Shown: positions 5,904 through 53,189 of the stretch, piece after piece
Layout of the letters: each line of letters opens with the position of its first letter
Position numbering within the stretch: the first letter of the stretch is position 1
NCBI GenBank assembly: GCA_963971535.1
Contig: OZ020589.1
Coordinates: forward strand, 79,778,911 to 79,842,910
Reading direction: 5' to 3'
DNA from: Notolepis coatsorum
Taxonomy: Eukaryota; Chordata; Actinopteri; Aulopiformes; Paralepididae
Length of the DNA stretch: 64,000 nt
Notes under the pieces: model-generated
The model's database searches: none
What the model saw: only the letters and a program-made list of their open reading frames with translations
What the model was told of the DNA's origin: nothing
Position numbers and translations under genes: made by a program

Positions 5904-6189
5904 GGGTTAGAGCGGACGCGAGGCCCGACAGATGCACCCCCTGAGGACCCGTAAGCCCACATCAAGGGGTTTGGGGAGCCCCGTCACCCCATCCTTCCTA
6001 ATGAAGGGGGGGGCACAGTCAACTCCACCTGAGTGCGAGCAAGAGGGAACTAGAACCCCTTGAACACACAGCACAGGCGGAACCACGTGTGACCTAACAC
6101 ACTGTGGCCCATACCTGCACACACTCCTGCTACCCTACCAAAGGACGGGAAGCAGGAAAGGCCACAGACCCCAGAACCGCCTGGGAGAC

Positions 6190-7040
6190 AGAACCCCCGG
6201 TCATGTCCATGAGGTAAAAACCTTACAAAGGGGCCCGGGGAGGACCATGAAGCTGCAGCACAGATGTCCTCCACCGAGGCCCCACCCAGGAGAGGCAGCC
6301 ACCCCACGAGTGGAGTGCGCCCTGACGCCCCCAGGGGGATCCTGCCCAGCCAACGTGTAGCAGAGGGCAATGCCCTCGCACAACCAATGGGACAGGCGCT
6401 GTTTCGACAGTGCCTTACCGGCACGAGAACCACCGTGACAGACAAAAAGCTGATCGGTGACCCTGAGGTCCTGAGTACGGCTGAGGTAAATTCCCAAAGC
6501 AGAGAAGCGTGAGGAGGCGGATGAAAACGCCTGAACCACAATATCCCTGGAGCGGAAGAACTCCAGATATTTTTAGGCACGAAGGCAGGATTAGGCCGCA
6601 GAGTGACACTGCAATCGGAATGAAAGACAGGCACTCTGGTCGTACCGAGAGAGCACAAAGCACACCCACGCGTTCAGCGGAGGTGACGGCCAGCAAGAAC
6701 GCGGCCTTGAACGACAGCTGTTCCAACGGCGCTTGCTCAAGAGGCTCAAACGGGGCCAAGGACAACCGACCGAGGACCAATTGAAGATCCCAACTCGGAG
6801 CCAAAGAGTGTAGCACCGGCTTAACGCGTCGAACGCCAAGCAGGAAACGCTTCACAAGAGGGTGGCTGAACAAGACATCCCCCTCAAATCCCTCATGATA
6901 GGAGGATATAGCTGCTGCATATACCCTCACCGTCGAAGCCGACAGTCTATCAAGGAGAGACTGGAGGTAACTAAGGACAGCATCCAGGGGGCAGGAGACT
7001 GGGTCCCGGCCCCCCGCCTTACACCACACTTGGAACATAC
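6190..7040 (-). pseudogene. DIRS tyrosine recombinase (degenerate)
   Basis: The minus-strand frames 7038-6415 and the shifted frames below them encode a phage-integrase-like tyrosine recombinase, which integrates the circular DIRS cDNA. Visible parts are the core-binding block STVRVYAAAISSYHEGF, a first catalytic arginine in TSAERVGVLCALSV, and the HxxR pair in RAHSTRGVAAS. The C-terminal tyrosine region falls near 6200-6220 but only after a one-base frame change in a T run. Several frameshifts make it inactive. A long open frame on each strand here is a by-product of high GC and CpG loss. Confidence 0.85.
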
Positions 7041-20990: not shown

Positions 20991-21646
20991 GCACCTATAG
21001 AGTAAACAGCTGGTGGAGGTCGGTCCCTGCCAGGTCTGTCTCTGTCCCACCCTCCCCAGACCTCTAAACAGAAACGGTCATGTTTTGGCCAAGAAATGGG
21101 AACCTGAAACTTTGAAATTGTTGTGTGGTTTGAATCCTGATATCCCTGGCTCATGCAAGCATGTCTACACACCAGATATTAGGCAGGTTCGATACAGATA
21201 CAAAATTTATATACTGCACTGTCTGCTTACAGTACAGTAATTGCACAAGTAGTAATAGTAGTAATTGATTAGAAATCCATAAAGGATACCTTTATCACCA
21301 ATTGAAACACCACAAGACACAGAGAGCAGAACACAATCAAGACATAGAGACAGAAAATAATACGGGCTTATATTATTATCAGTATCAGTAACATATATTA
21401 CATAATACACTGTTATCATTTTAATCAAATCACAGTGTATGTTTGAATCTATAATCTACATTTAACACCAGCTCCTTGTGTATCGGGGTCCAAAGTTTCA
21501 AATGTAACGTTACTCTCATAGGCATAGTTTATTGCACAGTGAAAACGGTAGTTTTAGTATAATTCACAACATCACAGTTTTATTAATTATTGCACATGTA
21601 AAGGGCCTCAGTGTTGTCCTGCTCTGTCCCTTCCTGTAAAGGGCCT
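20991..21646. other. No gene; target region of the Copia element
   Basis: Non-coding. The last 46 bases (GGGCCTCAGTGTTGTCCTGC and the following CTCTGTCCCTTCCTGTAAAG) belong to a short tandem unit that reappears after the Copia element at 27381-27450. Copia therefore landed inside a small direct repeat. Confidence 0.6.
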
Positions 21647-21941
21647 TGTTAAAGTTAGAGGTTATATGTAGGATTGCGAGTAACTGTCTAACTGTACATA
21701 ACTGTTTCCACTAGAGGGCGCTATAGGCGGAGCCGCTAATGCTATTGCCAGGTGGAGTGTATTTAAGGAGATGTCTCCTTCCCCTCTATCTCTTCCCCAT
21801 CTACCTCTCACGGAGAGGAGACCTCATGTGCTGCTGTACTATGAACCAATGTAAATAATAAACCACGCCGATTAAGGGCTCAAGGTAGAAACCATGCCTC
21901 AAGAGTATATTATTGTCGCCCCATAGCCAATTCTGTCAACA
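21647..21941 (+). repeat. Copia 5' LTR
   Basis: Starts TGTTAAAG and ends CTGTCAACA, so TG...CA ends are kept. It contains a TATTTAAG TATA-like box (about 21760) and an AATAAA polyadenylation signal at 21857-21862. Differences from the 3' LTR are five substitutions, four of them clustered between 21745 and 21785. Confidence 0.95.
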
Positions 21942-21955
21942 GGTTATGGGCCCAG
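21942..21955 (+). promoter_or_regulatory. Copia primer binding site, anticodon-arm tRNA-iMet type
   Basis: GGTTATGGGCCCAG directly follows the LTR. It is complementary to CTGGGCCCATAACC of the anticodon stem-loop of initiator tRNA-Met, not to a tRNA 3' end. Drosophila copia uses a 5' half-tRNA-iMet at an equivalent site (established knowledge). Here first-strand synthesis would start from a tRNA fragment cut in the anticodon loop. Confidence 0.85.
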
Positions 21956-22085
21956 ATCACGCAGGGGCGAAATAATAAGGGTAGCAAGTTTAGCTGAAGT
22001 ATAGGCTATAGCGCCGGGAGCACCACGTGGCTAAAGGCTATACCAACAACAGAGCTAAAGCTACGGCCACCATCAAAAGAGCAAC

Positions 22086-22283
22086 ATGGAATCCAACACG
22101 ACGATCCTGCGCGTCAAGAGGAAGCGGGGCACCGACCCCACCGACGCGCTGCTGCTGGCGGGCAAGCGGACCCGCCCGGAGAGCAGAGCGCAGAGCCCCG
22201 GGGAGGCGGCACCGGGGGAGACGGAGCCTGCTGAGCACAACCGAGGCGAGGGGGAGAACCCCGTCTTCGAACTCGTGGCGACC
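22086..22283 (+). other. Captured host segment resembling SLC7A6OS coding start
   Basis: This GC-rich, CpG-rich block encodes a basic peptide with clusters KRKR (residues 11-14) and KRTR (27-30) separated by 12 residues, a bipartite nuclear-localisation pattern. An acidic proline-rich stretch follows, then NPVFELVAT. SLC7A6OS homologues begin with the same arrangement (recalled family knowledge). Similarity ends at the VAT/KGRSK border, where gag begins, consistent with capture of a first exon. It lies wholly inside the LTR element, so it is not the host gene in place. Confidence 0.75.
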
Positions 22284-23378
22284 AAGGGAAGGAGCAAATG
22301 GCCCTCATTCAATGGAAAGGCAGAGGACTATGAGCTCTGGGAAGAGCGCATGTTATGCTGCATGCACGGTTCAGCGGACCTGACGCTGGGAAAGTTCAAG
22401 GCCAAGTTACGAAATTTCAAGGCCTCAGAGGATATCCACCCAGCCGCCGCGGAGGCGGGAGAAAGGGTGCTGAAGGCCCGAGCGACGCCGAGGGAGAAGA
22501 CCAGGCCCACGACGGAGCTGGCGTGTTGGCGATGCGGAGAGAAAGGCCATCGGAGAGGTAACTGCACAAGGACTGTCTGGTGTGGCTTCTGCAAATCCAC
22601 GGGGCACACAGACAGAGCGTGCATGAAGAAACACGACCAGAGCGCGCAATACGCACATGGACAAGATGGCGGCCATGGACAAGATAGCGGCGATGGTCGA
22701 CGTGACACGAATCGAGGCGACGCCCGGAGAGTAGCGGGACAAGAGGGCTTCATCCCCGGGGCGCGGACAGCGTACGTCACCAGGCCAACGCAGCTGCAGC
22801 AGGCCCAAAGGAAGGGACTGATTGTGGACACAGGTGCGTCGTCCCACGTCATCAACGACAGGAGTCGGTTCAAGAACTTTGACAACACTTTCCACCCGGA
22901 GAGACACAGCATGGAGCTGGCAGACGGGAAGCGCACCTATGGGTTGGCGCAAGAGAGAGGAGACGCACAGGTATGCCTCACAGACAGTGAGGGGCGCCGG
23001 TGTACAGTGACGTTAAAGACCGCTCTCTACGTACCATCGTTCCCACAAGGACTATTCTCTGTAATAGCTGCTACTGCGAACGGTGCCAAAGTGTTCTTCA
23101 ATGAAGGTAAAAATGTTCTTGTAGAGCCTAACGGTACGCGATTTAACATAGAGGTGTACCAGAGAATGTATTATCTACAAACAGAGTGTAATGACAACGA
23201 CAAGTGTAATAATACTGATATGTGTAACGTGACTGTCAGTCACGATATTCAGACATGGCATGAGATTATGGGTCATTGTAATTACGAGGATTTACTGAAA
23301 CTGCAAGCAGTGACAGAAGGCATGCACATTGAAGGTGAAAAGCGTAGACCTGACAGAGAATGTGTAGTGTGTGCATAA
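22086..23378 (+). CDS. Copia gag-protease ORF with SLC7A6OS-like N-terminus
   Basis: A 430-residue frame starting at an ATG in good context (AACATGG). Residues 1-66 resemble the N-terminus of SLC7A6OS/Iwr1 (TTILRVKRKRGTDPTDALLL, then NPVFELVAT) and are not gag. Residues 71-90 (KWPSFNGKAEDYELWEERML) start Copia gag. The following gag core is very short, suggesting an internal deletion near residue 95. Two CCHC knuckles are at 147-160 (CWRCGEKGHRRGNC) and 166-179. Protease DTGASSH is at 248-254, and the integrase HHCC zinc-binding block lies at the C-terminus. The frame stops after a GT-run slip just before the integrase core. Gag packages RNA; protease matures the polyprotein. Confidence 0.85.
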   Translation: MESNTTILRVKRKRGTDPTDALLLAGKRTRPESRAQSPGEAAPGETEPAEHNRGEGENPVFELVATKGRSKWPSFNGKAEDYELWEERMLCCMHGSADLTLGKFKAKLRNFKASEDIHPAAAEAGERVLKARATPREKTRPTTELACWRCGEKGHRRGNCTRTVWCGFCKSTGHTDRACMKKHDQSAQYAHGQDGGHGQDSGDGRRDTNRGDARRVAGQEGFIPGARTAYVTRPTQLQQAQRKGLIVDTGASSHVINDRSRFKNFDNTFHPERHSMELADGKRTYGLAQERGDAQVCLTDSEGRRCTVTLKTALYVPSFPQGLFSVIAATANGAKVFFNEGKNVLVEPNGTRFNIEVYQRMYYLQTECNDNDKCNNTDMCNVTVSHDIQTWHEIMGHCNYEDLLKLQAVTEGMHIEGEKRRPDRECVVCA

Positions 23379-24391
23379 AGGGGAAGTTTACTCAATCGAG
23401 AAACAGAAGTCCCACAGAAAAAGTAAAGGTACCACTTGCGCTAGTTAACACAGATCTAGCCGGTTCAGTAAGAAACGAGTCCATAGGAGGCTTTAGATAT
23501 GTACAGTATTTTACAGATGTGTGCACAGGGGCAGTGTTTGTTTACTTTCTCAAAGCAAAGAGTGACACACTCCAGGCCACGGAGAAATTCCTGGCAGACG
23601 TAGCCCCTTATGGTAACATAAGATGCTTGAGGTCCGACAACGGAACCGAGTTCACAAACAAAGAGTTCCAATCACTGTTGAGAAGGAACAAGATAAGACA
23701 CGAGACGTCATGTCCATATTCCCCACACCAGAACGGAGTGGCAGAGAGGGAATGGCGCACTCTTTTCGAAATGGCTAGGTGTAAGCTAGACAGCAACTTA
23801 CCTAAGAGTCTATGGCATTATGCGGTGCAAGAAGCCGCTTACACCAGAAACAGGTGCTTTAATAAGCACACAGGCACCACCCTGTATACAGCACTGACAG
23901 GAAAGAAGTATAATCTAGCTAGAATGCACCAATTTGGATCAGTGTGTTATGCTTACCTGCAGGACAGAAGAAAGCTGGAGTCCAGATGTGAAAAAGGACT
24001 CTTTGTAGGGCACGACAAAGGAAGCCCCGCTTTCCTAGTTTATTATCCCGGTAAAGGGGGAGTGCAGAAACACAGGCTAGTCAAGTTTGTCACAAAGACA
24101 ACATGTGAGAACGAGACACAGACAGAGGAGCCAGAGCTGGACTCCAGAGTAAGGTGTAAAGAAACAGAGACACCTCAGCCTAGTGTACTTAGCACGGTCG
24201 TGCAGACAGACAGTCAGCAACCCCCAGAGGGCGATGACGAGGAGCACCCGAGGGTGACGTCACGTGCCCCAAGCAGTGGGAGGTATCCCCCAAGGGAACA
24301 CAAACCCCCAAAGTATCTGACAGACTATGCCCGGAGAGGAAGTGACGAGGATGACAGTACACTTACACCATTGATTACTGCTACAGAGTAG
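23360..24391 (+). pseudogene. Copia integrase region
   Basis: A 343-residue open stretch in a different frame from gag-protease. The catalytic triad is readable: VNTDLAGS (first Asp), LRSDNGTEF (second Asp), QNGVAEREW (Glu). The C-terminal part has the GLFVGHDKGS block of Copia integrases and a diverged linker. The zinc-binding HHCC cysteines straddle the frame break with the upstream frame; a two-base slip in GTGTGTG explains the shift. The frame closes near 24391, just after RT has begun in another frame. Role: insertion of cDNA into chromosomal DNA. Confidence 0.9.
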
Positions 24392-24531
24392 TCAGTGGGG
24401 TACCTCAGACCTTTAAAGAGGCCATATTGTCCCCTGAATCAAGTAAATGGGAGAGAGCAATGGATGAGGAGATGAGGTCCCTAGAGGACAACCACACCTT
24501 TACTCTAACCAAGTTACCAGAGGGCAGACAG
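24362..24531 (+). pseudogene. Copia RT start, upstream of the hAT insertion
   Basis: In a frame different from integrase, this encodes VPQTFKEAILSP, WERAMDEEMRSLEDNHTF and TLTKLPEGRQ, the entry blocks of the Copia RT domain. It ends exactly at the hAT target duplication GCAGACAG (24524-24531). RT continues at 25578 after the insertion. Confidence 0.85.
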
Positions 24532-25569
24532 TAGGGGTGGGACGGTTCACAAAATGGACGGTTCGGTTCGTATCACGGTTTTGGGGTCACGGTTTTCGTG
24601 ACTGTGACCGGTTTTCGGTTCGATATACGTTAATTTGTATTAAAAAAAGAAATTTAACACTCAAAAATCTAAACATGCTTCATTTATATAAAAAAATTAA
24701 AATAAAGGTTTACAGTGTTACAGTGTTTACAGCCTTAAATAATGTTTGGCACACAAAGACCGAACTGACTGAAAAATATAGGCTACATTTGTCAAAGTAT
24801 TAACTGGCAGCATACATCAAACTAACACACACACACTACTGTTTAAAAACAACACTGCTCTGTTCATTCTATTTTTAAAATACGTACATTATCTGTCTAC
24901 ATTTATTTAGACTAACATTATTTAAATATTGAGTGCAACTGTGGTGGATTACGTAATTCGGTGAGTTGGAACTATCTATGGGTTGGCGGGTCCCCATGGA
25001 CATTTTAGCATGTGGCACCTTCAGCTCCGGTAACGTTAGGATGAGTTCATAACATCAACAAGCAGCACAAAAGCGGCAATAGTCCCGGTTGGAGTTAGTA
25101 AAACACAGTTGTATGTTAGCCTTCTTGGATGTTGAATAAACGCCTATCATGGTCTTTAAACACCCCGCTTCTCAGACTCTCATTTTCTCCTCTGCTAGCT
25201 AGTAGCTATGGTAACATTTCGTTGACTGTATTAGCTGGGGCTAGTGCTACCATAGTTAAAACGTGCGTTGTGTTGTACAAACTGCTAACGCTATGGCAAG
25301 ATGTGTGTAGGCCTATGTAATGTTAATGGCTATGTTTAAGTCGTAATGAAGATTGATTTATATTGTGCTTGCCATTTTTACACAAACTGACTAGCACCTG
25401 GCTGCAGTGCTGCTGCTGCTGCTGCCTGCAGCCAGTGCTCACCTCTCCTGGCTCCGTCAAATAATTTTTTTATTTGCGCGTCATCGGAACCGTACGATAC
25501 ACAGATGCCCCGAACCGTGGGGGTCGTACCGTACGGTACACGGTTCGAATGCGTACCGTCCCACCCCTA
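24532..25569. mobile_element. Non-autonomous hAT transposon in Copia RT
   Basis: 1038 bp with termini TAGGGGTGGGACGGT and ACCGTCCCACCCCTA (perfect inverted 15-mers) and an exact 8-bp target duplication GCAGACAG (24524-24531, 25570-25577), the hAT hallmark. Subterminal CGGTTCGGTTCG-type repeats occur near both ends. No transposase frame; it depended on an element elsewhere. It inserted after Copia integration, or the Copia copy could not have been functional when it moved. Confidence 0.93.
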
Positions 25570-25577
25570 GCAGACAG

Positions 25578-26982
25578 ACAGTGGGAGGGAAATGGGTGTA
25601 CTCAATCAAGGAGGGTATTGAAGGCCACGACAAGTACAAAGCGAGATTTGTAGCTAAAGGTTACAGTCAGAGGGAGGGGATAGACTACGGTGAAACATTC
25701 TCCCCCACAGCCAATCTGACCAGTGTAAGGGTAGTGATGCAGAAAGCAGCTGAGGACAATTTGATTCTACATCAGATGGATGTGAAGACAGCCTATCTGC
25801 ACACACCCATAGATAGGGAGATATATATGGAACAACCTGAAGGTTACGAAAAGAAAGGAGAGAAGCTAGTGTGCAAGCTAGAAAAATCCATTTACGGCCA
25901 TGAAACAGTCTGGGCGAAATTGGAACGAGATGCTTCACACATGTCTCATTGAAGATGACTTCCTACAGAACCCAGTAGACCCCTGTGTTTACTCAAGGGA
26001 GTCAAAAGAGTCAGGGAAAGTGATAATCGTCATTTCGGTGGATTATTTGATCATCGCAGCAGACAACACTAGCAACCTAGAACAGGAGAAAGGTATGCTC
26101 TCCACCAGATTCAAAATGAAAGACCTTGGAAGGTTAAAACATTTTCTAGGCATGGACTTTGAACAGTCTGCCAATTGTGTAAAAATATTCCAGAAGAGAT
26201 ATGTGGAAAAGATCCTGAAACGTTTTGACATGCAAGAATGTAGATCAAGGGAAACACCATGTGATCAAAAACTAGACTACCAGGAGGATTCTCAGAAACT
26301 GACAGATGTAAAAATTTACAGAGAAACTGTGGGTAGCCTCATTTATTTGACAACATGTACTCGCCCCAACCTATGTTTTGTAGTGAGCAAATTGTCACAG
26401 CATTTTGCTGACCCCACAGAGGAGCACTGGATTACAGCAAAACATGTTTTTCGTTATCTCAAAGGTACAGCAGATAAACAGCTGTGTTTCAGAAAGAGCA
26501 GCGAGGGCTTAGGGCTTAAAGCATACAGTGATGCAGACTGGGCAGCTGACACCACAGATAGAAGAAGTACCACAGGATATTGTGTGAGTTTGAACACAAA
26601 CAGCTCACTGGTTTCGTGGAAAACAAAGAAGCAGCCCACAGTGGCACTATCAACTTGTGAAGCCGAATATATGGCTCTAGCTATGACAATACAGGAATGT
26701 ATTTATCTAGAACAACTGCTCGAAGGGATGGATACCTATGTATATAAGAAGACTATTGTTTACAAGGACAACCAGGGAACCATTGCGATTGCTAGAAACC
26801 CTGTGTGCCGACAGAGATGTAAACAGGTCGATATAAAATATAATTTCATCAGATCTGTCATCAGAGAAGAAAGAATGACACTGATTTATTGTCCAACAGA
26901 CGACATGGTAGAAGACGCTATGACAAAACCTGCTTCCAAACTGAAATTGAGAAGATTTGCAGAGGTCATGTTTGGTGTGTAA
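25578..26982 (+). pseudogene. Copia RT and RNase H region
   Basis: 25578-25900 encodes VGGKWVYSIKEG, YKARFVAKGYSQREG, FSPTANLTSVR and QMDVKTAYLH of RT fingers and palm. A one-base shift near 25900 leads to a 360-residue frame (to 26982). The usual YVDD catalytic box reads SVDY (VISVDYLII, near 26035), so a catalytic aspartate is lost. RNase H follows: YSDADWAAD, CEAEYMAL, KDNQGTIAI are kept. It ends with TKPASKLKLRRF shortly before the polypurine tract. Roles: cDNA synthesis and RNA removal. Confidence 0.9.
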
Positions 26983-27073
26983 ATATTGACTGCCATATTC
27001 TTTTTGATGTTCTGAACTGTATTATTTTCTTTGTAAATTGTTTTTGAAGAAGTTATACAGTGTGCTAGACAAC

Positions 27074-27085
27074 CCTAAGTGGGAG
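27074..27085 (+). promoter_or_regulatory. Copia polypurine tract
   Basis: The purine-rich run AAGTGGGAG lies directly before the 3' LTR, the expected priming site for plus-strand DNA. It is short and is assigned by position. Confidence 0.6.
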
Positions 27086-27380
27086 TGTTAAAGTTAGAGG
27101 TTATATGTAGGATTGCAAGTAACTGTCTAACTGTACATAACTGTTTCCACTAGAGGGCGCTATAGGCGGAGCCGCTAATGCTACCGCCAGGTGGAGGGTA
27201 TTTAAGGAGATGTCTCCTCCCCCTCTATCTCTTCCCCATCTACCTCTCACGGAGAGGAGACCTCATGTGCTGCTGTACTATGAACCAATGTAAATAATAA
27301 ACCACGCCGATTAAGGGCTCAAGGTAGAAACCATGCCTCAAGAGTATATTATTGTCGCCCCATAGCCAATTCTGTCAACA
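27086..27380 (+). repeat. Copia 3' LTR
   Basis: 295 bp with TG...CA ends, same length as the 5' LTR, no indels and five substitutions. The polyadenylation signal AATAAA is at 27296-27301. The target duplication GGCCT follows. Confidence 0.95.
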
Positions 27381-28057
27381 GGCCTCAGTGTTGTCCTGCT
27401 CTGTCTCAGTGTTGTCCTGCTCTGTCCCTTCCTGTAAAGGGCCTCAGTGTTGTTCGACCAGTCTAATCTGTTGTTCAGGTGTACTCCAGGTGCAGGTAGG
27501 CTCTATGGAGCGTGTAGATAATGGAGTGTAATAGTGAGTGTAATAGTGTTATAGGAATAATGCATGGAGATCTGCTTGGTCTATGTTTGCCCCGCCCTGG
27601 CCCCTACACCTAAGCAGGGTTATTGAGTTCTATTGCATACAATGACCATAACTCCATTTATAGGATGAGCTCCAAGCCAGAGACAATAAGGGTCATTGAA
27701 CAATGGCCCAGTAACTATATTCAGCCTGTGCAATGCAATACAATGACAGCTGCATCCACAACACACTGATATACAGTAGATATAAATTAAGCATCACGTA
27801 GTGTTAGCACTCTCAATTGCATTACTCTAACACAGCCTGTCATCTTCTGCTGTTACAATTACATGGTTAGTGCCTGTTAGGACTATACCATTTGGTGGGC
27901 ATGTGTACAGTGCCATGTCCAGTATGGGTGGCCCAAATGGGAATGAAATCCCTAGCCCTGGCAGTGTTATGCTCTACTCATTGAGCTGTGCACAGGACCA
28001 TGAAACAAACAAATAAGGTGACGATAAAAGAATTTGTGTGTTACTTAAGCATTAAGT
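27381..28057. other. No recognisable gene; short duplicated target sequence
   Basis: 27381-27450 repeats CAGTGTTGTCCTGCTCTGTC two to three times, the same unit as the left flank of the Copia element. The rest up to the SINE shows no coding or repeat signature that I recognise. Confidence 0.5.
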
Positions 28058-28435: not shown

Positions 28436-29080
28436 AACGTTCTTGTGTGTCATATTGGCGTTTCATTGTCACTGTTTTGGCTTGCTTTTGTTCAATGACA
28501 TTCCTCACCACGGTGGGCTTCATCTGCGTGTCCCTGGTGGGCAGGAGTGTCCGTGTCCTCCTGGACATGAGTTTCTGCACTGGAGAGCTCCCTAGACCCT
28601 CTATTGGAGTGTTCCTCCATGCCAGGATGGCTTTCCATGGGTCTTCTCCATCCAGGATCGTCTTCTTCAGCAGAGTTTTTGCTATTTTCACCGCCGCCTC
28701 TGCTTTGCCGTTGCTCTGACTGTGGTAGGGTGATGATGTCTTGTGGCTGAAATCTCATTCCTGCGCGAAACACTGAAACTCTATTCCTGAGAACGGTGGT
28801 CCATTGTCTGTGAACACAATATGAGGGATTCCATGTCTGCTGAAATGCTTTTTGCAGCACTCCATAATGGTAGATGATGTGTAGTCTGCCAGCTCGTCTA
28901 GTTCCCAGTAATCTGAATAGTAATCCACCATGATGAGGTATGTGGACTTGTTGACTGTGAGCAAGTCCATTCCCACCTTTGACCATGGGATGTGAGGGAT
29001 TGGTTGGGAAATCAGTGTTTCCCTTTGTTGTCTTCGTTGGACTGCGTTGCATGTGGAACAGTCATTGACAAAGCTCTTAC
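28432..29080 (-). pseudogene. Gypsy integrase (degenerate)
   Basis: The minus strand shows the zinc-binding remnant NDCSTCNAVQRRQQ, then GMDLLTVNKSTYLIMVDYYS (first Asp), HIVFTDNGPPFSG (second Asp) and, in another frame, NGKAEAAVKIAKTLL with the catalytic Glu. Stop codons near 29082 and 28752 and a frame change break it. The C-terminal part is cut at the SINE boundary. Confidence 0.88.
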
Positions 29081-29081
29081 T

Positions 29082-30986
29082 TTACGTCGTTATGCCTGGC
29101 CAGAAAACGGTCTCTCTGGCTTTGCTGAGGCTGGCTTCCACGCCTGAGTGGCCCATGTGAATCTTTGATAAGAACATGGGGTGTAATGCTGTAGGAATGA
29201 ACACTCTGTCCCCTTTAAAAATAAGTCCATTTTCTACTGTGAGTTCCTCTTTGTAGGTCCAGAATGGATGTAGTAAGTGGCCTACATCCTGTTTGTACTC
29301 TGGCCATCCCTTGATGACTCTCGCGTGTAGTGTTTGAAACACTGGGTCTTGTGCTGAATGAGTTCTGATGGTTTTCATCATCTGTGTGGAGATGTTGATG
29401 TTACATGCGTGCTCTATGTGTTCTATTTCCGTCGTCGTGAGGCCCATGGCGTAGATCGTGGTTGGTGTCTGCATCTCTGTGTGCACCGTGTTGGGTAGTG
29501 GCATCCTGGATAGGAAGTCAGACACGTGTAGGTCTTTGCCTTGTTTGTATGCCACCTGTAGTTGGTATCTCTGTATAGTCTGAGCAGCACGGAGCAGCAT
29601 CCTCCGTAGCCGTGCTGAAAGTAAAGACTTTTTAAAGATAATTTCCAGTGGTTTGTGATCAGTGTGTATTGTGATACAGTCTCTGCCATGTATGTATTGG
29701 TTGAACTTGTCGCATGCGAACACAATGGCTAGGCATTCCTTCTCTATCTGTGCATACCTTTGTTCTGTGGGCGTCAGCGTCCTGGAGGTGAATGCTACAG
29801 GTTGTCCATGTTGTAGGAGGACTGCCCCTATGCCTGCCTCGCTGGCGTCACACTGGAGGGTGACCTCTTCCTTGAGATTGTAGTATTTGAGTACTGGGTG
29901 GCGTGTGACCAAGTGTTTTATGTTCTCTAGTGCTGCGTCATGTTTCGGTAACCATGTCCATTCTATGTCTTTATCGGTCAGTCGTCGCAGTGGTTCGCAT
30001 ACGTCTGATAGACTAGGTAGGAACCTTGACAGATAGTTAACAAACCACAACAGCCGTTGGAGTGACTTGACGTCTGTCGGCGTCTGCATGTTCTGGATGG
30101 CAGTGATTTTCTCCGGATCTGGACACAAGCCTTCTGCCGTGAGACAATGACCCATGTATGTCACGCTTGGAAGCTTCAGCCTGAGTTTCTTCTTGTTGAG
30201 TTTTAAGTTTGTCTCTCTGGCTCTCTGCAGCAGGGCCCTGAAATTTCTGTCGTGGTCAGCCATCGCTTCTTCATTGGTGTTTCCACATCCGTACACCAAA
30301 ATGTCATCTGCTATCATACTCACCCCCTTTAGTCCCACCAATATTTCATGCTGCCTCCTTTGATATTCTTCTGCTGCTGGTTTTATACCAAAAGGCATCC
30401 TCAGCCACCTGTATCGTCCTTCAGGAGTCCAGAACGTGGTTAGATGACTGCTCGTTTCATCTAACTTCACCTGCCAGTATCCATCTTTGGCGTCTAGCAC
30501 CGAAAATATTTTTGCATTTGCTATGTCTGGTAACACTTCTTCTACCGTGGGCATCTTGTAATGTGACCTCATCAAAGCCTTGTTTAGTGCACCTGGGTCA
30601 AGGCATATGCGCAGTTTGTCCTTCTTCTCTGTGAGCACCATGTTGCTGATCCATGGCATCGGCTCTGTGACCTTGGTTATGATGGCTCCCTGTTCCATTG
30701 CTCTTATGGCTTTGATTACCCTTTCTCTCATTGGAATAGGCGTCCGTCGTGGCAGTTGTTGTACTGGCTGCACCTTGGGGTCTAGTTCCAGGTGTAACTC
30801 TCCTGGTAGACAGCCAAGCCCCTCAAAGACATCTTCATATTTAGAAATAATCTCTTCTGCTGTCTGGGGATTATCTGTGTTCAGCTGGTTCTGGATGTCG
30901 ACACTGTGAATTACATGTTTATGATTCACATTGATCAGGTTCAGTCTCATGCAGGTTTCTGCTGAGAGCAGTGGGTCCTGTGTCAA
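29082..30986 (-). pseudogene. Gypsy RT-RNase H polyprotein segment
   Basis: A 634-residue open stretch. RT blocks include LRICLDPGALNKAL, IFSVLDAKDGYWQV, RMPFGIKPAAEEYQRR and MIADDILVYG with the catalytic [YIV]xDD box kept as IADD. RNase H shows TLQCDASEAGIGAVLLQHG, EKECLAIVFACDKF and TDHKPLE. The end holds the H-x-H integrase zinc-binding start (HMGHSGVEA). This part is open, but the missing protease upstream and the broken integrase downstream make it non-functional. Its 5' border is a deletion joining the protease DTG to the sequence after protease. Confidence 0.92.
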
Positions 30987-40732: not shown

Positions 40733-40781
40733 TGGTAACTAGTGTAATATTAATATAGTGTTATTAATATTGAAATGGCCT

Positions 40782-43700
40782 ATGATGAACACTCCACAAA
40801 ACGGCCCTCCTAACGTAGAACGCCCGCGGCGCAGACGACAGACACCTCAGTACTTAGAGGATTACGCTGTCAGTCAACTACCTAGCCTTCGACAAACGGT
40901 AAACGCGGTAAAAGTAGAAAGTAAAATTATGTCTGACCTTAACGACCAGGTTACCCCGACCACAGAGGCCCTAGTGGGTTCTAATGTAACTGACCAAGCT
41001 CCCGGTGGGGACCAGGAGGGAGCTGACATGCCTTTACCCCCCGCCAATACCGAAGAAGTAGTCCCCGACCAGCCCCGGGAGGAAGACAACCCTACAGAGA
41101 GAGAACTCTGCACGGAAGAAGAGGAGGAGAGCGCCGAGGAAATAGAGCTCCAGGACTCCCCAACGAGTACAGCCAGGAGCGGCTCACCTCTACAACCGTC
41201 TTCCCCCAGCGAAGCGGAGAGGACGCTATCACAGGCGTTCCTCGCCAGCCTGACAGCCTCTACCGAACGCGATCGACTTCAGGGTGAACGCGATCGACTT
41301 CAGGGTGAACGCGATCGACTCCAAGCACAGACGCTTAGCGAGCGCGAACAACTCCAAGCGCAGCAACGGAGCGAAGAAGAGCGCATACGCCTGGAGATGA
41401 GACGCCTTCAGACGGAAGAGAATATGGCAAGAGACCGGGCCGACGCCCAGCGCGCCGCTGCCGGTGCCCAAAGAGAAGCAGATCTCACCAAGCGCGAAGC
41501 CGAGCGCAACAGACTACAAGCGCAGCTAATGGAGCAGCTGATCCTCAAGGCAACACCCTCTCCCTCCGCCAGGGGTTCAAGGAACTCGTCGAGACAACAG
41601 TCAAGGGCAGCGTCTCCTAACCGAGCAAGCGACCCTGAACTTGACCAACAGACCAAGCCTATACCCCCCGCAGACCCCCTTCCCAGACCGGTCCAAGCGA
41701 GACCCAGCTACAAGGAAGGAGCGGCATACACTGCGGAGAAGCTAAATAAACGACTACAGGATCTAGAGGACCTGATAGAAGAAGAAGAGGGAGAGGAGGA
41801 GAACCAAGCCCGACGACAGCACAGTACTCCACCGGACCAGGAGGTCCAGTACAGCCCAGGCTATACCCCCGCGGCGCTGCGCTACAGACCCCCGACTCTA
41901 TTCACGGGTGAGCACGACGCACGACCAGCCCCGAGGAATAGCACCTGGACCAGCGGGCCATGGTACCCTGCCGGTACCAGCCCACAGAGAGGCGCAAGAG
42001 GAGACTCGCCTAGGAGGTCTCTCCCCCAACGCTCGCCGATGTATCAGCCATCCACGGCGTCATACATTGCCACACCGACGTTTCCAGACTTCACCTATGA
42101 AAATCGAGCACAGTACACGGAGCTCCGGATGTGCTTAGAGACAATGATGGTGGATGTCGCTGATGAACGCCACAAGTATGCAATATTACTGAAACACCTG
42201 AAAGTACCGCGAGCGCACAATATAGCGCTAGCCTATGCCACCTCTACGACCCCATACACCGCGGCTCTAGCAGCGCTGGACCAGAGATATGGACGTATAT
42301 GGGATTACGTAATCCAAGAGATAAGGCATATTGACCGCCTACCCCCAGCAACAGACAATCGCTCATTAGACGACCTGTCTATAAAAGTGCAGTCCCTGGT
42401 AGGGATGCTGGGAGCGCAACGGGAAAAGGGTATGCACGAGCTATACGCCAACTCTAACGTCGAGAGGATTTTAGAGAAGCTGCCACCCGCCAGACAAGAG
42501 CGCTTCAGGCGGCAGAGAGACCACCGTGATCCTAACGGTCCCGAACCATCCCTCCTCGATCTAGCCGACTTCCTGGCGAGAGAAGTCAGCAGCCTACGAC
42601 TGGATACGTTCGGGCGGAGCACACCAAGCTCCAGAGAGGGACCCAGGAGAATAAACGATGGAAGAAGATCGGTGACTGTCATGCACCAATCAGAATCAGT
42701 ACCGAGCAGTAAGAACCACAGTACCCCCTCGAGAAAAGAGAAGTGGAAGATGGTGTGCCCGTACTGCGAGAAGGAACACTGGCTGTCACAATGTGACCTG
42801 TTCACAAAGATGAATGCAGAAGAAGTGAGTCAATGGATAAAGTCCAACAGGCGCTGTTACCGATGTGCGCGCAGTCACATGGCAGCCGAATGCCGCCTAA
42901 AGAAGAGGTGCAGTCGGTGTGACGGAGCCCATCTAGATGTACTACACGACAGTAACAGAAGAAAGCCTGCACCTGCACCATCGAGCAGCACCAAGGCAAG
43001 TGTCATGTACATTGACCCCGCCAGCAGCAGCGGCGCCCAAGTGCTCTTAAAGGTAGTCCGTGTAACATTGAGCTACCAAGATAAAGTCATGGACACTTAC
43101 GCCGTCCTTGATGACGGGTCAGAGAAGACCCTTCTGATCGCGTCCGCTGCGGCCCAGCTGGGACTGCGGGGGAGCGAGAACCAAATGACGATTCGGACAA
43201 TAAGAAGAGATTTAAAGACGATAAAGGGCGAGAATGTCTCCTTCACTATCGCAGCAAGCGGGCAGCCAGAGCGACGGTATAGGATTACAAATGCTTTCAC
43301 CAGCCAAGAAATAGGACTATCACAGTACACCTACCCCATCGCCAAGCTGATGGATAAATATGTGCACCTGCGTCAACTACCTATCCCGCTCATAGACGGC
43401 GCCACCCCGAGCCTGCTGATAGGCTCCGACCATGCAGACCTCATAGTCCCGATAGACCGGGTCCATACAGGACCCCGAGGCTGTCCTGCAGCAGTCGAGA
43501 CCCGCCTAGGGTGGACACTACAAGGCCCCCTCGCTAAATCTCTCAACCGAACAGCAGCCACTAGCTGCCTCCACTCCAGAGCGACAGAAGAAGACACCAC
43601 TCTCCTGCAGCATGTCGAGAGGCTATGGACACTAGAGACAATGCCCTTTAAGAACGAAAAGAAAGACATTCGTTCTAAAGAAGACATTTACGCCATAAAC

Positions 43701-44279
43701 CTCCTCGAGCAAGGGACAAAGAGAGTCACAGTCGGCGGAGTGATGAGATACGCAACTCCACTCCTGAGGCGAGAGGGAATGCCCACCTTTCACGCCACGA
43801 AAGAAGCTACGGAGCGGTATCTATTGAACACAGAGCGGCGCCTAGCCAAAGACCCCGCTCAAGAGAGTGTGTACCGCGCTGAGATTGAGAAGCTAATCAC
43901 AGCGGGACACGTAACGAAGATTGACTGGCGACGCCGTGCGCTGCTCCGCGCCTCTCTGATCAAAGGCGGCTTTGATCTCAGGCAGTGGGCCAGCAGCGAC
44001 CCGCAAGTATTGCGCAGCCTCTCCCCCGCGGACAAGGCTGCCAGCAGCGAGACCTGGATGGCGACAATCCCAGGAGAAGCCCAAGAAATGACACTAGGAT
44101 TAGTCTGGCGCTTCAAAACAGACTCGCTCCACTATAGACACAAACCCCTGACCACGGAGCAGGGAAGGTCGACGGCGATACCGACCACCAGACGGAGTGT
44201 GTACAGAACACTCGCCAGACAATATGACCCGTTGGGATGTATTCTACCTTACACCACCAGGGCAAAGATGATTGTATGA
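40782..44279 (+). CDS. BEL gag-protease and RT remnant ORF
   Basis: 1165 codons from ATG 40782 (the frame is open from 40758). Order: an acidic N-terminus; a long charged coiled coil at about residues 150-256 with three ERDRLQG heptads; a Pao-type gag domain at about 433-593 (FPDFTYENRAQYTELR and following); CX2CX3HX4C knuckles at about 659-726 (CPYCEKEHWLSQC, CYRCARSHMAAEC, CSRCDGAHLDVLH); an aspartic protease with VLDDGSEKT near 773-782. After TERYLLNTERRLAKDP and GHVTKI the RT palm is missing: the text jumps to GGFDLRQWASSDP, which lies after the catalytic box in the family. TGA at 44277 ends it in frame with the rest. Confidence 0.93.
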   Translation: MMNTPQNGPPNVERPRRRRQTPQYLEDYAVSQLPSLRQTVNAVKVESKIMSDLNDQVTPTTEALVGSNVTDQAPGGDQEGADMPLPPANTEEVVPDQPREEDNPTERELCTEEEEESAEEIELQDSPTSTARSGSPLQPSSPSEAERTLSQAFLASLTASTERDRLQGERDRLQGERDRLQAQTLSEREQLQAQQRSEEERIRLEMRRLQTEENMARDRADAQRAAAGAQREADLTKREAERNRLQAQLMEQLILKATPSPSARGSRNSSRQQSRAASPNRASDPELDQQTKPIPPADPLPRPVQARPSYKEGAAYTAEKLNKRLQDLEDLIEEEEGEEENQARRQHSTPPDQEVQYSPGYTPAALRYRPPTLFTGEHDARPAPRNSTWTSGPWYPAGTSPQRGARGDSPRRSLPQRSPMYQPSTASYIATPTFPDFTYENRAQYTELRMCLETMMVDVADERHKYAILLKHLKVPRAHNIALAYATSTTPYTAALAALDQRYGRIWDYVIQEIRHIDRLPPATDNRSLDDLSIKVQSLVGMLGAQREKGMHELYANSNVERILEKLPPARQERFRRQRDHRDPNGPEPSLLDLADFLAREVSSLRLDTFGRSTPSSREGPRRINDGRRSVTVMHQSESVPSSKNHSTPSRKEKWKMVCPYCEKEHWLSQCDLFTKMNAEEVSQWIKSNRRCYRCARSHMAAECRLKKRCSRCDGAHLDVLHDSNRRKPAPAPSSSTKASVMYIDPASSSGAQVLLKVVRVTLSYQDKVMDTYAVLDDGSEKTLLIASAAAQLGLRGSENQMTIRTIRRDLKTIKGENVSFTIAASGQPERRYRITNAFTSQEIGLSQYTYPIAKLMDKYVHLRQLPIPLIDGATPSLLIGSDHADLIVPIDRVHTGPRGCPAAVETRLGWTLQGPLAKSLNRTAATSCLHSRATEEDTTLLQHVERLWTLETMPFKNEKKDIRSKEDIYAINLLEQGTKRVTVGGVMRYATPLLRREGMPTFHATKEATERYLLNTERRLAKDPAQESVYRAEIEKLITAGHVTKIDWRRRALLRASLIKGGFDLRQWASSDPQVLRSLSPADKAASSETWMATIPGEAQEMTLGLVWRFKTDSLHYRHKPLTTEQGRSTAIPTTRRSVYRTLARQYDPLGCILPYTTRAKMIV

Positions 44280-46478
44280 GCACTATGGGACAAGGACCAG
44301 GGCTGGGACGACCCAATACCCGCACACCTTGCCTCCACATGGAGAGAGTGGGAGACGGAACTCCGCTCACTCCCAGGCATCAATATACGCCGCAGCTACT
44401 TCCCACCCACAGTGAGGCCAGAGACATGCAAGATGGATCTACACGTCTTCAGTGACGCCTCCGAAGTAGCCTATGGATCGGTGGCCTACTTGCGTGCCCA
44501 AGAGAAGGGAGGAGAGATACACACTGCTTTCATCCTGGCTCGCTCAAGAATAGCCCCACGAAAGCAACAATCTATCCCGCGTCTAGAGCTCTGCGCAGCC
44601 CTAGCAGGAGCGCATCTAGCCACGTTAATCCAACGTGAACTCACCATTCCGGTGCACAGAACAATCTTGTGGTCAGATTCCACGACAGTACTCACATGGA
44701 TCAAGTCTGATTCATGCAGATACAAGGTCTTCGTGGGAGTCAGAGTCACCGAGATTCAAGAGTTAACAGAAGCAGCGAGCTGGCGGTATGTGGACACCAA
44801 ACACAACCCAGCTGACGTCATCACCCGGGGAATGTCCCTAGATGACCTCACCCGTCGCAACATCTACAGTGACGGACCAGAGTTCCTCAAGCTCCCGGAA
44901 GAAGAGTGGCCTACGCCCACCCCACGGGAAGCGAGTAAAGAGGAGGCTGAGAACAAGAAACCTATGTTCTGTGGACTGAGCACAGTCGCCTCCACAGACC
45001 CCAACATAGATGATTGCATTACCCTACAGAGTGCGCAGCTAAAGACATTTCTGCGGCACCACCCAGAGATTCAGCCCACTGCCGACATTTCAGCAGCTGA
45101 CTACGAAGAAGCAGAACTTCTTCTACTACAACGAGCCCAGAGAGACTCGTTCCCCGATGAGCTAGACTGTCTACAGGGAGGAAAGCCCGTCCCATCAGAC
45201 AGCAGATTGCTCCACCTGGCACCCGAGAGCGACGCCCATAATCTCATCAGAGTGGGTGGTCGTCTGCGGAGAGCCCCCAATCTACCGGATGACGTTAAGT
45301 ACCCGATAGTCTTGAACAGCCGACACAAGGTCACAGAGCTGATCATAAAGAAATACGACGAGGATGTACACCACGCAGGAGCAGAGAGAGTCTTCGCGGA
45401 GATCAGACGTCGCTATTGGATACTTCAAGGAAGAGAAGCAGTGCAACGCTTCCAGCGAACCTGTCTAGACTGCCGAAAGTGCCGCGCGCAGCCCAGCATA
45501 CCCCGGATGGCTGACCTACCTCCCTGTCGCCTCCGACTCGGCGACAAGCCATTCCACTCCACAGGCATGGACTGTTTTGGCCCGTTGTATATAAAGAAAG
45601 GAAGAGGAACCGAGAAGCGGTGGGGTATTGTATTCAAATGCATGACCACCAGAGCGATACATATCGAACTCCTTCCGACCATGAGCACAGACTCATTCCT
45701 TATGGCCTTCCGAAGATTCACATCACGGAAAGGAAAACCGTCTACATTGTTGTCTGATCACGGGACAAACTTCAAAGGCGGAGAAAGAGAGCTGAGAGAG
45801 AGCTTCCAAGCTATGGGCCCAGAACTTAAGACCCACCTCGCTCCATCCCAGATTGACTTCCAGTTTAATCCCCCGAACGCACCCCACTTCGGTGGAACCT
45901 GGGAACGAGAAGTACGTTCTATAAAGACAGCCCTGTACGCCGTGCTTGGGGCCCAGACTGTGGCGGAAGAAGTCCTAATGACAGTCCTCACGGAGATCGA
46001 GGGAGTATTGAACTCCAAGCCCCTCGGCTACGTCTCCAGTGATGTAGCAGATGTCGACCCAGTCACCCCCAACACACTCTTGATGGGGCGGCTGGACCCC
46101 GCGCTACCCCAGACAATGTACAGGCCTGAAGAAGCGAACGGCCGAAGAATGTGGAGGTACAGTCAAGTACTAGCTGACAAGTTTTGGAACAACTTTCTAC
46201 TCCACTACCTACCGTCTCTACAGACCCGCCAGAAGTGGGTAAAAGAGAGAGACAATTTGACAGAAGGAACAGTCGTCATGATTATCGACCAGTCACTACC
46301 CAGAGCTATGTGGCCGGCTGGCCGCGTAAGCAAAGTGATCACCGGTGCCGATGGCAAGGTCCGAGCAGCCGAGGTGCTCGTCCAAGGGCGAACTTACACA
46401 CGACCCGTGGCGAGGCTAATAGAACTGCCCAGACTCCCAGACACTATCGATGACGACCATGACCCCACGACTTTGTGA
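44280..46478 (+). CDS. BEL RNase H-integrase part of the polyprotein
   Basis: Same frame as the upstream ORF, separated only by TGA 44277-44279; first internal ATG at 44412. RNase H: LHVFSDASEVAYG, SIPRLELCAAL, WSDSTTVLTWI, HNPADVITRG. Integrase: zinc block HHAGAERVFAEIRRRYWIL...CLDCRKC, then HSTGMDCFGPLY (Asp), LLSDHGTNFKGG (Asp) and GGTWEREVRSIK (Glu), so all DDE residues are kept. A C-terminal domain with AMWPAGRVSKVI and TYTRPVARLIELP closes it. It would be expressed only by readthrough or from a copy without the stop. Confidence 0.93.
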   Translation, partial: ALWDKDQGWDDPIPAHLASTWREWETELRSLPGINIRRSYFPPTVRPETCKMDLHVFSDASEVAYGSVAYLRAQEKGGEIHTAFILARSRIAPRKQQSIPRLELCAALAGAHLATLIQRELTIPVHRTILWSDSTTVLTWIKSDSCRYKVFVGVRVTEIQELTEAASWRYVDTKHNPADVITRGMSLDDLTRRNIYSDGPEFLKLPEEEWPTPTPREASKEEAENKKPMFCGLSTVASTDPNIDDCITLQSAQLKTFLRHHPEIQPTADISAADYEEAELLLLQRAQRDSFPDELDCLQGGKPVPSDSRLLHLAPESDAHNLIRVGGRLRRAPNLPDDVKYPIVLNSRHKVTELIIKKYDEDVHHAGAERVFAEIRRRYWILQGREAVQRFQRTCLDCRKCRAQPSIPRMADLPPCRLRLGDKPFHSTGMDCFGPLYIKKGRGTEKRWGIVFKCMTTRAIHIELLPTMSTDSFLMAFRRFTSRKGKPSTLLSDHGTNFKGGERELRESFQAMGPELKTHLAPSQIDFQFNPPNAPHFGGTWEREVRSIKTALYAVLGAQTVAEEVLMTVLTEIEGVLNSKPLGYVSSDVADVDPVTPNTLLMGRLDPALPQTMYRPEEANGRRMWRYSQVLADKFWNNFLLHYLPSLQTRQKWVKERDNLTEGTVVMIIDQSLPRAMWPAGRVSKVITGADGKVRAAEVLVQGRTYTRPVARLIELPRLPDTIDDDHDPTTL

Positions 46479-49409: not shown

Positions 49410-51572
49410 GTAAGGAGGACTGTGTCAGAGGCCAAACGACGCTACAGGGATAAAATTGAACTCCAGTTTGAACAAGCTGACTCTAGAGCTATGTGGCAGG
49501 GGCTCAAAACGATGACAGACTACAAAGGCGCCTCCCTCAAACTGAACAGTGACATCTCCTTAGCAAATGACCTCAATACCTTCTATGCGAGGTTTGATGC
49601 TGGTAATAACAACACCAGCTCACAAGCCTCGGCAATGGGGGGGGGGGGTCGGCTGCTGATGGAGGCGCAGTGTTCAGGGTAACAGAGCATGAGGTGAGGC
49701 GGACCTTTAAAAAAGTGAATATCAGGAAGGCAGCAGGTCCAGACGGCATCCCCGGCCGCGTCCTAAAAGTCTGTGCCGACCAACTGGCCCCAGTATTCAC
49801 TGACATATTTAACCTGTCCTTAGAACAGGCTGTCATCCCCACCTGCCTGAAGAAGTCCACTATTATCCCTGTACCCAAAAAATCCAAGCCTGCTTGCCTC
49901 AACGACTACCGCCCTGTAGCTCTCACCTCCATAGCCATGAAGTGCTTCGAGAAGCTAGTAAAGGGCTACATCTGCTCCTCCCTCCCCATCAACATGGACC
50001 CCCTGCAATTTGCATACCGCCCCAACAGGTCCACGGAGGACGCCATATCCCATGTGCTGCACACAGCAGCATCACACCTGGACAAGAGGCAGGGGAACTA
50101 TGTGAGAATGCTATTCATCGACTACAGCTCGGCATTCAATACCATAGTCCCCTCCATACTCATAGCCAAGCTCAGGGACCTGGGCTTGGGCTATGACCTC
50201 TGCCAGTGGGTCTTGGACTTCCTGACTGGCAGACCCCAGGTGGTGAGAGCAGGCAACTGCACCTCCTCATCCATCACCCTCAACATAGGGGCCCCCCAGG
50301 GCTGTGTTCTGAGTCCCCTCCTCTACTCCCTGTACACACACGACTGTGTGGCTCAGCGGAGTAGCAATACAATCGTCAAATTTGCTGACGACACAGTGGT
50401 GGTGGGCCTGATCTCTGCCAACGACGAGAGGGCCTACCTGGAAGAGGTCAAGGTCCTGGCGGGATGGTGCCAGGAAAACAGCCTCTCCCTGAACGTCAGC
50501 TAAACAAAGGAGATGATTGTGGACTTCAGGAGGTCGGGGGTCAAGGACTACAGCCCCCTCAGCATCGACGGGGCACCGGTTGAGAGAGTCAACAGCTTTA
50601 AGTACCTCGGAGCCTACATATCCGAGGACTTGACATGGACCACACACATTAACAGTGTTGTGAAGAAGGCACGACAACGCCTCTACTTCCTCAGGCGCCT
50701 AAGGAAGTTCCAAGTCAGCCAGAAGATCCTTAAGAACTTCTACTCATGTACAATAGAGAGCATCTTGACCGGCAACATCACCTCCTGGTTTGGGAATAGC
50801 ACTGCACAAGACCAAAGCAGACTACAAAGAGTGACACGTTCAGCCGAACGCACAATTGGAGGGGGGCTCCCCACCCTCCAGAACATTTACTACAAGCGTT
50901 GCAAGGGCAAGGCTAAGAGAATCATTAAAGACTCCAGTCACCCGAACAACTGCCTCTTTGAACTGCTGCGGTCAGGCAAGCGATACAGGAGTCTCAAGGC
51001 GAGCACAGAAAGACTCAGAAGAAGCTTCTATCCCCAGGCCATCAGGCTGCTAAACGAACAATGAATGAACACTACACAACAACAACCACCAAACGCACAT
51101 AGCACACACATCCACACGCACACACTCACTTTAAACAAACACACTGTAGCACCCACTCCACACACTTATAGCACACACCCACTTTAAACAAACACACTGT
51201 AGCACCCACTCCCCACACTTTATATTTATGGATGAAGGATTGCACTACAACTCGTACACCTTACTGTAAATTGTACCTAAAATTGTACCTCATCCCATTT
51301 CTGCTTTGCACTAGATAGTACTGTACATTAGTACACTGCATAGTATTGTGTATTGTATATTATATGGTAACTCAGAACATTGTACATATGTCTATACCGA
51401 ACACTGTGACCTCATTTTCTTCTTCTAAATTCATGCTATATTATGTTATTATGTTATTTGATACTATCTTGTCTAGCACAGTCTCTGGAGCGTAACAGTA
51501 AGAAGCATTTTGTATGAAAGTATTCTGTACTTCTGTATGACAACTATTAAAGAACTTGAACTTGAACTTGAA
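49410..51572 (+). mobile_element. L2 LINE, plus strand, 5'-truncated
   Basis: 2.16 kb, beginning in the linker before RT and ending in a GAACTTGAACTTGAACTTGA tail. Its two outer borders (CAGTAAGGA at 49410 and GAGGTATGGGTTGTAG at 51573) close up to the uninterrupted 3' UTR of the minus-strand L2, so it inserted there. The 3' UTR contains ACTTTAAACAAACACACTGT direct repeats (51128-51200). Confidence 0.9.
49670..51064 (+). pseudogene. L2 reverse transcriptase (plus-strand copy)
   Basis: A frame open except for one TAA at 50501-50503. RT blocks: [68 protein letters not shown] and the intact catalytic [10 protein letters not shown]. Then VNSFKYLGAYISEDLTWTTH and a C-terminal domain ending FYPQAIRLLNEQ. 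It copies LINE RNA at the nicked target. A single nonsense codon (likely AAA to TAA) and the missing 5' half disable it. Upstream, 49422-49668 is the linker, broken by a G run at 49637-49646. Confidence 0.92.
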
Positions 51573-51698
51573 CTTGAGGTATGGGTTGTAGTGCAAATTC
51601 TTTGCCAATAAATATAAAGTGTGTTTAGATGTTCTAAAGTGTGTAGAGTGGGTGCTGCAGTGAGTTGTTTGTTTAAGTGAGTGTGTGCATGTGCAGCA

Positions 51699-51828
<130 letters not shown>

Positions 51829-51889
51829 GTGCCGTGCTAAAGTGACTGTTAGTGTGTGAGCGTATACAGTATGTGTGTTGCGTGTGTGC

Positions 51890-53187: not shown

Positions 53188-53189
53188 TG

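Follow-up and report, generated by a model that had tools for sequence, protein, structure and literature searches.

A Copia retrotransposon family of Notolepis coatsorum with an N-terminal Gag tail of host SLC7A6OS origin

Capture of host genes by LTR elements has been described in plants, where Bs1 of maize carries segments of three plant genes (PMC13317346), and LTR elements of bdelloids have likewise gained outside genes, which form third ORFs (ORF3; PMC5408684). The family reported here resembles both in carrying outside sequence; it differs from Bs1 in that one piece of one gene starts the Gag of a vertebrate Copia element, and from the bdelloid elements in that the acquired piece is an N-terminal extension of Gag.

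Tf1 of fission yeast belongs to a different LTR family from Copia. Its Gag has an N-terminal import signal, and the first ten residues are critical for import and retrotransposition; the passages of PMC7175516 on this signal do not describe it as captured from a host, and the nuclear localization signal (NLS) of the fused Copia Gag is, for its part, a prediction. The basic bipartite NLS of Ty1 and Ty3 lies outside Gag, towards the C-terminus of integrase (PMC7175516), so a Gag needs no NLS a priori. As to the parent gene, SLC7A6OS/Iwr1, a bipartite NLS near the N-terminus of its product has been predicted in zebrafish Slc7a6os and described in yeast Iwr1 (PMC4372478); the Iwr1 Pfam stretch and the central export signal of this product lie outside the captured piece.

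Host gene capture by LTR elements and an N-terminal NLS in Gag are already known; the capture of an SLC7A6OS/Iwr1 piece is genuine and clean. No report of an SLC7A6OS/Iwr1-retroelement fusion was found among the open-licence papers listed, in agreement with the original prediction, which knew of none. Since the parent exon, the unfused sites, the joins and many fused copies are found in one genome, this is an unusually clean animal case of an LTR retrotransposon taking host coding sequence into Gag. Unfused and fused Gag form a natural before/after pair for asking whether a Gag can gain nuclear import in one step, and the case bears on the path of vertebrate Copia cDNA into the nucleus and on the spread of captured modules among subfamilies.

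The element in the window

The window is a stretch of 64,000 nt (G000:C13:79778911-79842910) from a 3.42-Gb assembly, and an LTR-bounded Copia element lies at 21647-27380 of it. This element has the TG..CA LTR ends, the 5-bp target-site duplication, the integrase placed before the reverse transcriptase and the RVT_2-type reverse transcriptase of Ty1/Copia elements, and the fused Copia ORF (22086-23378, 430 aa) is present between the LTRs as originally stated. Its features, in window coordinates, are:

21642..21646, no strand: left target-site duplication, GGCCT, 5-bp, from the sequence at the element flank
21647..21941, + strand: 5′ LTR, 295 nt, TGTT...CAACA, differing from the 3′ LTR at 5/295 positions
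21942..21957, + strand: LTR-adjoining region starting GGTTATGGGCCCAG, from sequence
22078..22081, + strand: probable 5′ junction microhomology AGAG, common to the host 5′UTR and the unfused leaders of the L039/L073 forms
22082..22275, + strand: host-only 194 nt, comprising 4 nt of 5′UTR, the host ATG and SLC7A6OS exon 1 codons through residue 64
22116..22127, + strand: first basic cluster of the predicted bipartite NLS, KRKR, residues 11-14, from the ORF translation
22164..22175, + strand: second basic cluster, KRTR (host: KRIR), residues 27-30, from the ORF translation
22276..22283, + strand: 3′ junction microhomology TGGCGACC; native gag ATGGCGACC reads GTGGCGACC here
22284..23378, + strand: native gag from codon 4 (KGRSKWPSFNG) and the start of pol, until the stop, from the ORF and sister copies
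22821-23084, + strand: Pol_BBD, within the preceding feature, from Pfam
23360..24391, + strand: integrase part of pol in a shifted frame (rve, SH3_retrovirus), from Pfam
24532..25569, no strand: nested hAT-like insert interrupting pol, ending in inverted repeats of 20 nt and flanked by the 8-bp duplication GCAGACAG
25570..26982, + strand: reverse transcriptase (RVT_2) portion of pol, split over two overlapping frames, plus the downstream part, from Pfam
27086..27380, + strand: 3′ LTR, from the LTR comparison
27381..27385, no strand: right target-site duplication, GGCCT, 5-bp, from the sequence at the element flank

The exact residues given for the NLS (11-14 and 27-30) are a reading made in the original prediction and by us. 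The region adjoining the 5′ LTR (21942..21957) presumably resembles a primer-binding site for initiator tRNA-Met, with the match in the anticodon region of this tRNA. A tRNA scan of the window returned no genes. By Pfam, the pol domains stand in Copia order (Pol_BBD, gag_pre-integrs under the cut-off, integrase, RVT_2), with the RVT_2 match in 25407-26982 lying 3′ of rve and SH3_retrovirus in 23360-24391.

The Copia gag core PF14223 was not found by Pfam in the window copy and was found in both sister fused copies checked (L019 and L025), so that the window copy is a defective member of a family having this core. Judged by the distance to gag in sister copies, about 139 residues of the core are gone after about 22370, and zf-CCHC in the window gag scores 14.9 bits (cut-off 20.8). 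Because of the gag core deletion, the frames broken at 23378 and near 25900, and the 1,038-nt insert in pol, the window copy is dead and unable to make normal Gag. The insert at 24532-25569 is a nested non-autonomous hAT-like element, whose inverted repeats begin TAGGGGTGGGACGG and which is flanked by the duplication listed above.

The description of the captured piece as markedly GC- and CpG-rich holds toward the leader: its 198 nt (22086-22283) have a GC content of 0.71 and a CpG observed/expected ratio of 0.97, against 0.51 and 0.65 in the preceding leader. The contrast is sharp at the 5′ side only, since the gag stretch 3′ of the piece is also fairly rich (0.60 and 0.88).

Several other elements in the window were noted by eye: two long ORFs (1173 and 688 aa) at 40758-46478 (+) with a BEL/Pao-type gag-pol look; a 634-aa ORF at 28492-30986 (-) with a Gypsy-type reverse transcriptase look and a broken part adjoining; ORFs at 6050-7038 (-) resembling a tyrosine-recombinase (DIRS/Ngaro-type) relic; and several LINE-like reverse transcriptase ORFs on both strands at 49670-54111.

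Parent exon and joins

The N-terminus of the fused ORF was originally recognised as SLC7A6OS-like from its pattern, and its counterpart is exon 1 of SLC7A6OS in the same genome (L010, C35:11451614), to which the window piece is 93.9% identical in DNA and 83% in protein. When the genome was searched at the protein level with residues 1-66, 762 first-look candidates emerged and 150 matches were scored; the gag part gave 7908 candidates, of which 150 were likewise scored, and these numbers are not copy counts. The host coding sequence continues via GTAGCGACACAG to a GTGAGC donor, and the sole Iwr1 Pfam match of the genome search, which exceeds the cut-off, lies 13.6 kb 3′ of exon 1 on the same strand. 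Between them on that strand is a further stretch similar to the gene; in order, exon 1, this middle part and the part with the Iwr1 match resemble about residues 1-63, 175-243 and 243-287 of fish SLC7A6OS. Pfam assigned no family to the 66 captured amino acids, the Iwr1 domain sitting in a later SLC7A6OS exon, and a PDB sequence search with them returned one match, unrelated (E 0.63).

Comparison of residues 1-66 with teleost SLC7A6OS, a check proposed at the outset, agrees with this: among the matches to the captured residues are fish proteins annotated as 'RNA polymerase II nuclear localization protein SLC7A6OS', and the lack of significant SLC7A6OS similarity that had been named beforehand as a refutation does not apply. 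For the fused piece of L019, identity is 56-70% with the captured-part matches, which make up 118 of the best 120 of 164 hits and are mostly named SLC7A6OS, the remaining two of the 120 being gag. The exon of the own genome is far closer. The first 20 fused copies, which were ordered by how similar their protein is to that of the window copy and are therefore biased to conserved N-termini, agree with it at 55-61 of 66 residues (83-92%) and at 93.4-96.0% of DNA letters; the 32 fused copies chosen by gag share 90.9-95.9% of DNA, and the range over the fused copies compared is 90.9-96.0%. These identities make it most likely that the capture happened in the lineage of Notolepis coatsorum itself, and, judging from the sequences compared, it is near certain that residues 1-64 are of host origin, taken up by a Copia gag. 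The reverse, acquisition of the exon by SLC7A6OS from the element, was rejected, the exon being present in SLC7A6OS of many fishes.

With the gag region of the 941-aa fused frame, we found 23 related proteins from elsewhere, and the captured N-terminal motif is present in none of the 23; its occurrence in all distant Copia gags had been named beforehand as the sign that it is ancestral gag sequence. Ten of these relatives begin MA and have WPxF at residues 8-12, and four begin within gag; the remaining nine, which are more distant (34-42% identity), start differently. Copia elements of other fishes (hits named Synaphobranchus, Oryzias, Metynnis and Mugilogobius) are 43-67% identical over gag and, unlike the fused family, have no captured N-terminus. 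When residues 1-140 of the 352-aa fused Gag of L019 were used as query, no match among the best 120 of 164 spanned gag and SLC7A6OS; each was either gag or SLC7A6OS, with a coverage of at most 55%. A first protein search gave 47 hits, the 14 examined all looking like host exon 1, and both motifs together occur in 0 of 189 proteins gathered from three protein searches, in databases that may lack close relatives of Notolepis coatsorum. Two Oryzias melastigma 'PHLDB1' proteins (P0050 and P0051) begin with Copia gag (MATRTKIKWPTFDG...), either an annotation artefact or a fusion in the reverse direction.

The unfused site is found in the same genome. The 5′ regions of 80 loci chosen by similarity to the window gag were compared, and 38 are unfused, 21 fused and 21 uninformative (19 without the gag-start anchor and two others); 20 of the 80 had been picked for lying away from the listed captured-piece matches, and seven high-ranking loci with the captured piece were fetched apart from the 80. 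The ratio of 21:38 understates the fused copies among gag hits and is not a genome-wide ratio. The native start ATGGCGAC is present in 38 of the 80, the sister gag beginning ATG GCG ACC. Unfused copies read ...CATCAAAAAGGAGG ATG GCG ACC AAG GGA... (form A) or ...CATCAACAAGAGG ATG GCG ACA AAA... (form B), with close variants, and fused copies read ...CATCAAAAGAG CAAC ATG GAA TCC ... CTC GTG GCG ACC AAG GGA...

The 3′ join is the 8-nt microhomology TGGCGACC, and the 5′ join is probably a 4-nt microhomology, AGAG. With an AAGAGG-form leader as parent, 194 host-only nt replace 2 nt between AGAG and TGGCGACC; with an AGGAGG-form leader (the L040 form, which is without the AGAG of the 5′ join) the position of this join is more ambiguous. 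When the host exon region and the unfused L040 leader are joined at random, at least 8 nt are shared in 0.036% of cases and at least 4 nt in 2.1%. Both joins recur among the gag-chosen fused copies, the 3′ join GTGGCGAC in 27 of 32 and the 5′ join AGAGCAAC in 24 of 27 readable ones; the other five and three, respectively, are one letter off.

The capture is in frame, as proposed, and takes in somewhat less than the coding part of the first exon (198 of 210 nt) plus about 8 nt of 5′UTR. Comparison with the parent gene corrects the idea that exon 1 ends at 22283: the 3′ join sits 12 nt 5′ of the splice donor. Exon capture by splicing was rejected, because the join lies 12 nt inside the exon. Of the roughly 66 codons first said not to look like gag, residues 1-64 are host-only, and residues 65-66 (A-T) are common to the host piece and native gag.

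The start codon of native gag, ATG, is GTG in fused copies; translation of a full-length fused Gag should therefore begin at the host ATG and include the tail. In one of the 32 fused copies (L055, G000:C13:44210467-44211387) the join reads ATGGCGACC again, GTG having changed to ATG, which puts a native-like start codon back inside the fused frame and counts against the view that fused Gag always carries the tail.

A tail with a predicted nuclear import signal

The captured piece holds KRKR and KRTR, twelve residues apart, and the fused copies thus have, like Tf1, basic clusters at the N-terminus of Gag. Of the 32 gag-chosen fused copies, 29 are readable at KRKR, which 26 of them keep intact, and 30 are readable at K-R-x-R, which 24 keep; C26R, by which a basic residue is gained beside the second cluster, is found in 23 of 29 readable copies. 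The frame is open to the join in 21 of 29 readable copies, and 19 read on into gag. The tail keeps both clusters of the predicted NLS and may add importin-dependent nuclear targeting to Gag or Gag-Pol, a plausible gain, and the likeliest role for the tail, that we put forward tentatively. Similarly tentative is the wider proposal that the Copia family hijacked the signal of the Pol II import factor, Gag and packaged cDNA entering via importin-alpha, and that the module spread between subfamilies by recombination; if true, the Gag of a vertebrate Copia family would use a host import signal from an RNA polymerase II import factor.

Approaching an even chance, though still short of it, is the reading in which the same capture left a tail that is a passenger, Gag tolerating an unstructured extension that spread by chance or along with other parts of the element. 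We counted nonsynonymous (N) and synonymous (S) variants in the 32 gag-chosen fused copies, a sample biased to window-like gag in which seven copies have only about 230 of 450 gag letters. For variants present in at least four copies, the captured part has 8 N and 3 S (7.7 N expected), and gag of these copies, over 150 codons, has 0 N and 10 S (7.1 N expected; Fisher p 0.001), which speaks against a selected import role; the ratios are 10:4 against 5:16 at three or more copies (p 0.013) and 24:12 against 20:25 at two or more (p 0.07), and singletons are near neutral in both parts (captured 37:15, gag 86:35). Many of the shared variants in the captured part are at CpG sites, where an identical change can recur. 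With CpG columns taken out, the ratios are 2:0 against 0:4 for at least four copies (p 0.07), 2:0 against 2:7 for at least three (p 0.11) and 5:1 against 10:9 for at least two (p 0.34); the contrast rests largely on CpG columns and is weakened by this, which counts against the passenger reading. These comparisons are suggestive of a constrained gag and of a captured part that carries no sign of amino-acid constraint, in a contrast that is not firm.

The fixed differences from the host exon also favour a passenger, being 6 N to 1 S where about 2.9:1 is expected under neutrality. So does the structure model (13 sequences, pTM 0.33, mean pLDDT 50, thus weak), in which residues 1-73 have a pLDDT under 50 and no predicted structure, helices begin at residue 79, and the tail gives no sign of being folded. 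On the other side, none of the eight older replacements falls on the seven basic residues, yet by a hand calculation this has a chance of about 0.4 without constraint, which is too weak for claiming constraint at those residues, and the gain at residue 26 adds a basic residue near the second cluster.

Route of capture and later spread

As an overall explanation, we consider it likely that a Copia element captured a piece of host SLC7A6OS by template switching and bears it as the N-terminus of Gag. A Ty1/Copia element would have captured a piece of the host transcript (or exon), most likely once, by two template switches in reverse transcription, from gag to host RNA at TGGCGACC and then to the element leader at AGAG; the product would be an otherwise native Gag with a 64-residue host-derived N-terminal tail, and the fused elements would have transposed again and seem to exchange parts with unfused sisters. 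The parent gene, the unfused sister site, the junction microhomology and the independent fused insertions support capture in frame, and template switching is the route that we infer from the joins.

Copy-choice during reverse transcription is the commoner route to such chimaeras in LTR elements, and it speaks against capture at the DNA level, by which microhomology-mediated repair would have copied host exon 1 into an integrated element. We think that this is unlikely, although the microhomology fits it, the same joins would be expected, and a piece from within one exon gives splicing no means of separating an RNA from a DNA source. Template switching between packaged RNAs has been described (PMC13317346).

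The capture replaced the start codon and the adjoining 5′UTR, and any benefit could instead lie at the level of translation or of the RNA, where the start context and the CpG-rich 5′ sequence of the host would stand in for the native start region. The open frame to the join, kept in most readable copies without visible amino-acid constraint, would fit this; nothing indicates a weak native start, however, and unfused copies are no rarer than fused ones among the loci sampled, so that we hold such a benefit to be quite improbable.

Whatever the tail does, the fused elements transposed again after the capture. Target-site duplications were compared in 10 LTR pairs and match in five fused copies (the window copy, L023, L025, L026 and L031); four of five letters match in L014, and L017, L019, L024 and L030 have LTRs truncated in the data or duplications without a match. 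The LTR distance is 0.014-0.036 in five near-full-length pairs (L013, L014, L023, L025 and L026) and 0 to 0.030 in shorter pairs.

A tree was built from 450 nt of gag for 84 rows (46 of them fused and 38 unfused, two gap-rich fused rows having been dropped). Fused and unfused copies are intermingled on it, with five changes in the best tree, whose bootstrap is not settled, and at least three forced by well-supported branches; forcing the fused copies together is rejected (p-AU 0.02). Their failure to hold together on this tree speaks against a single event. On the other hand, nearly all of the fused copies have the joins in common, as well as six derived residues, D2E, A3S, A19T, I29T, V56G and S59P (exceptions among the first 20 are L026, which keeps V56, and L024, which has T59); this points to one capture followed by recombination between subfamilies, not to repeated capture. 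Recombination of fused elements with unfused sisters, as we infer it, also fits the finding that the fused copies comprise two types of leader and at least three of gag.

That the unfused copies instead derive from fused ones by precise deletion between short repeats is very improbable: the mixture on the gag tree would allow it, tree counts being blind to gain versus loss, but in the ten closer gag relatives from elsewhere the native site is where the protein begins, the unfused leaders show several forms there, and the unfused ATG would need to be recreated from GTG. An origin of the piece as ancestral gag or by chance resemblance was rejected and deserves next to no credence, with nothing found in its favour and with unfused sisters, piece-free gag relatives and a near-identity to the host exon far beyond chance against it.

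Some individual copies are worth recording. L026 (G000:C8:20075105-20082605) has the host valine at residue 56 together with a different gag type (TCGTTCAAC), and is either an early form or a recombinant. Four unfused copies (L075, L076, L090 and L098) have other start-site forms, with CAACCAAGAGG or CAAACAAGAGG before ATGGCGACC; their gag adjoins or falls among the fused copies on the tree, and they are possibly recombinants. Three captured-piece matches at G000:C21:70549178-70554241 are spaced 2433 nt and two at G000:C45:65025227-65028827 are spaced 3403 nt; from this regular spacing, some fused copies seem to have been locally duplicated.
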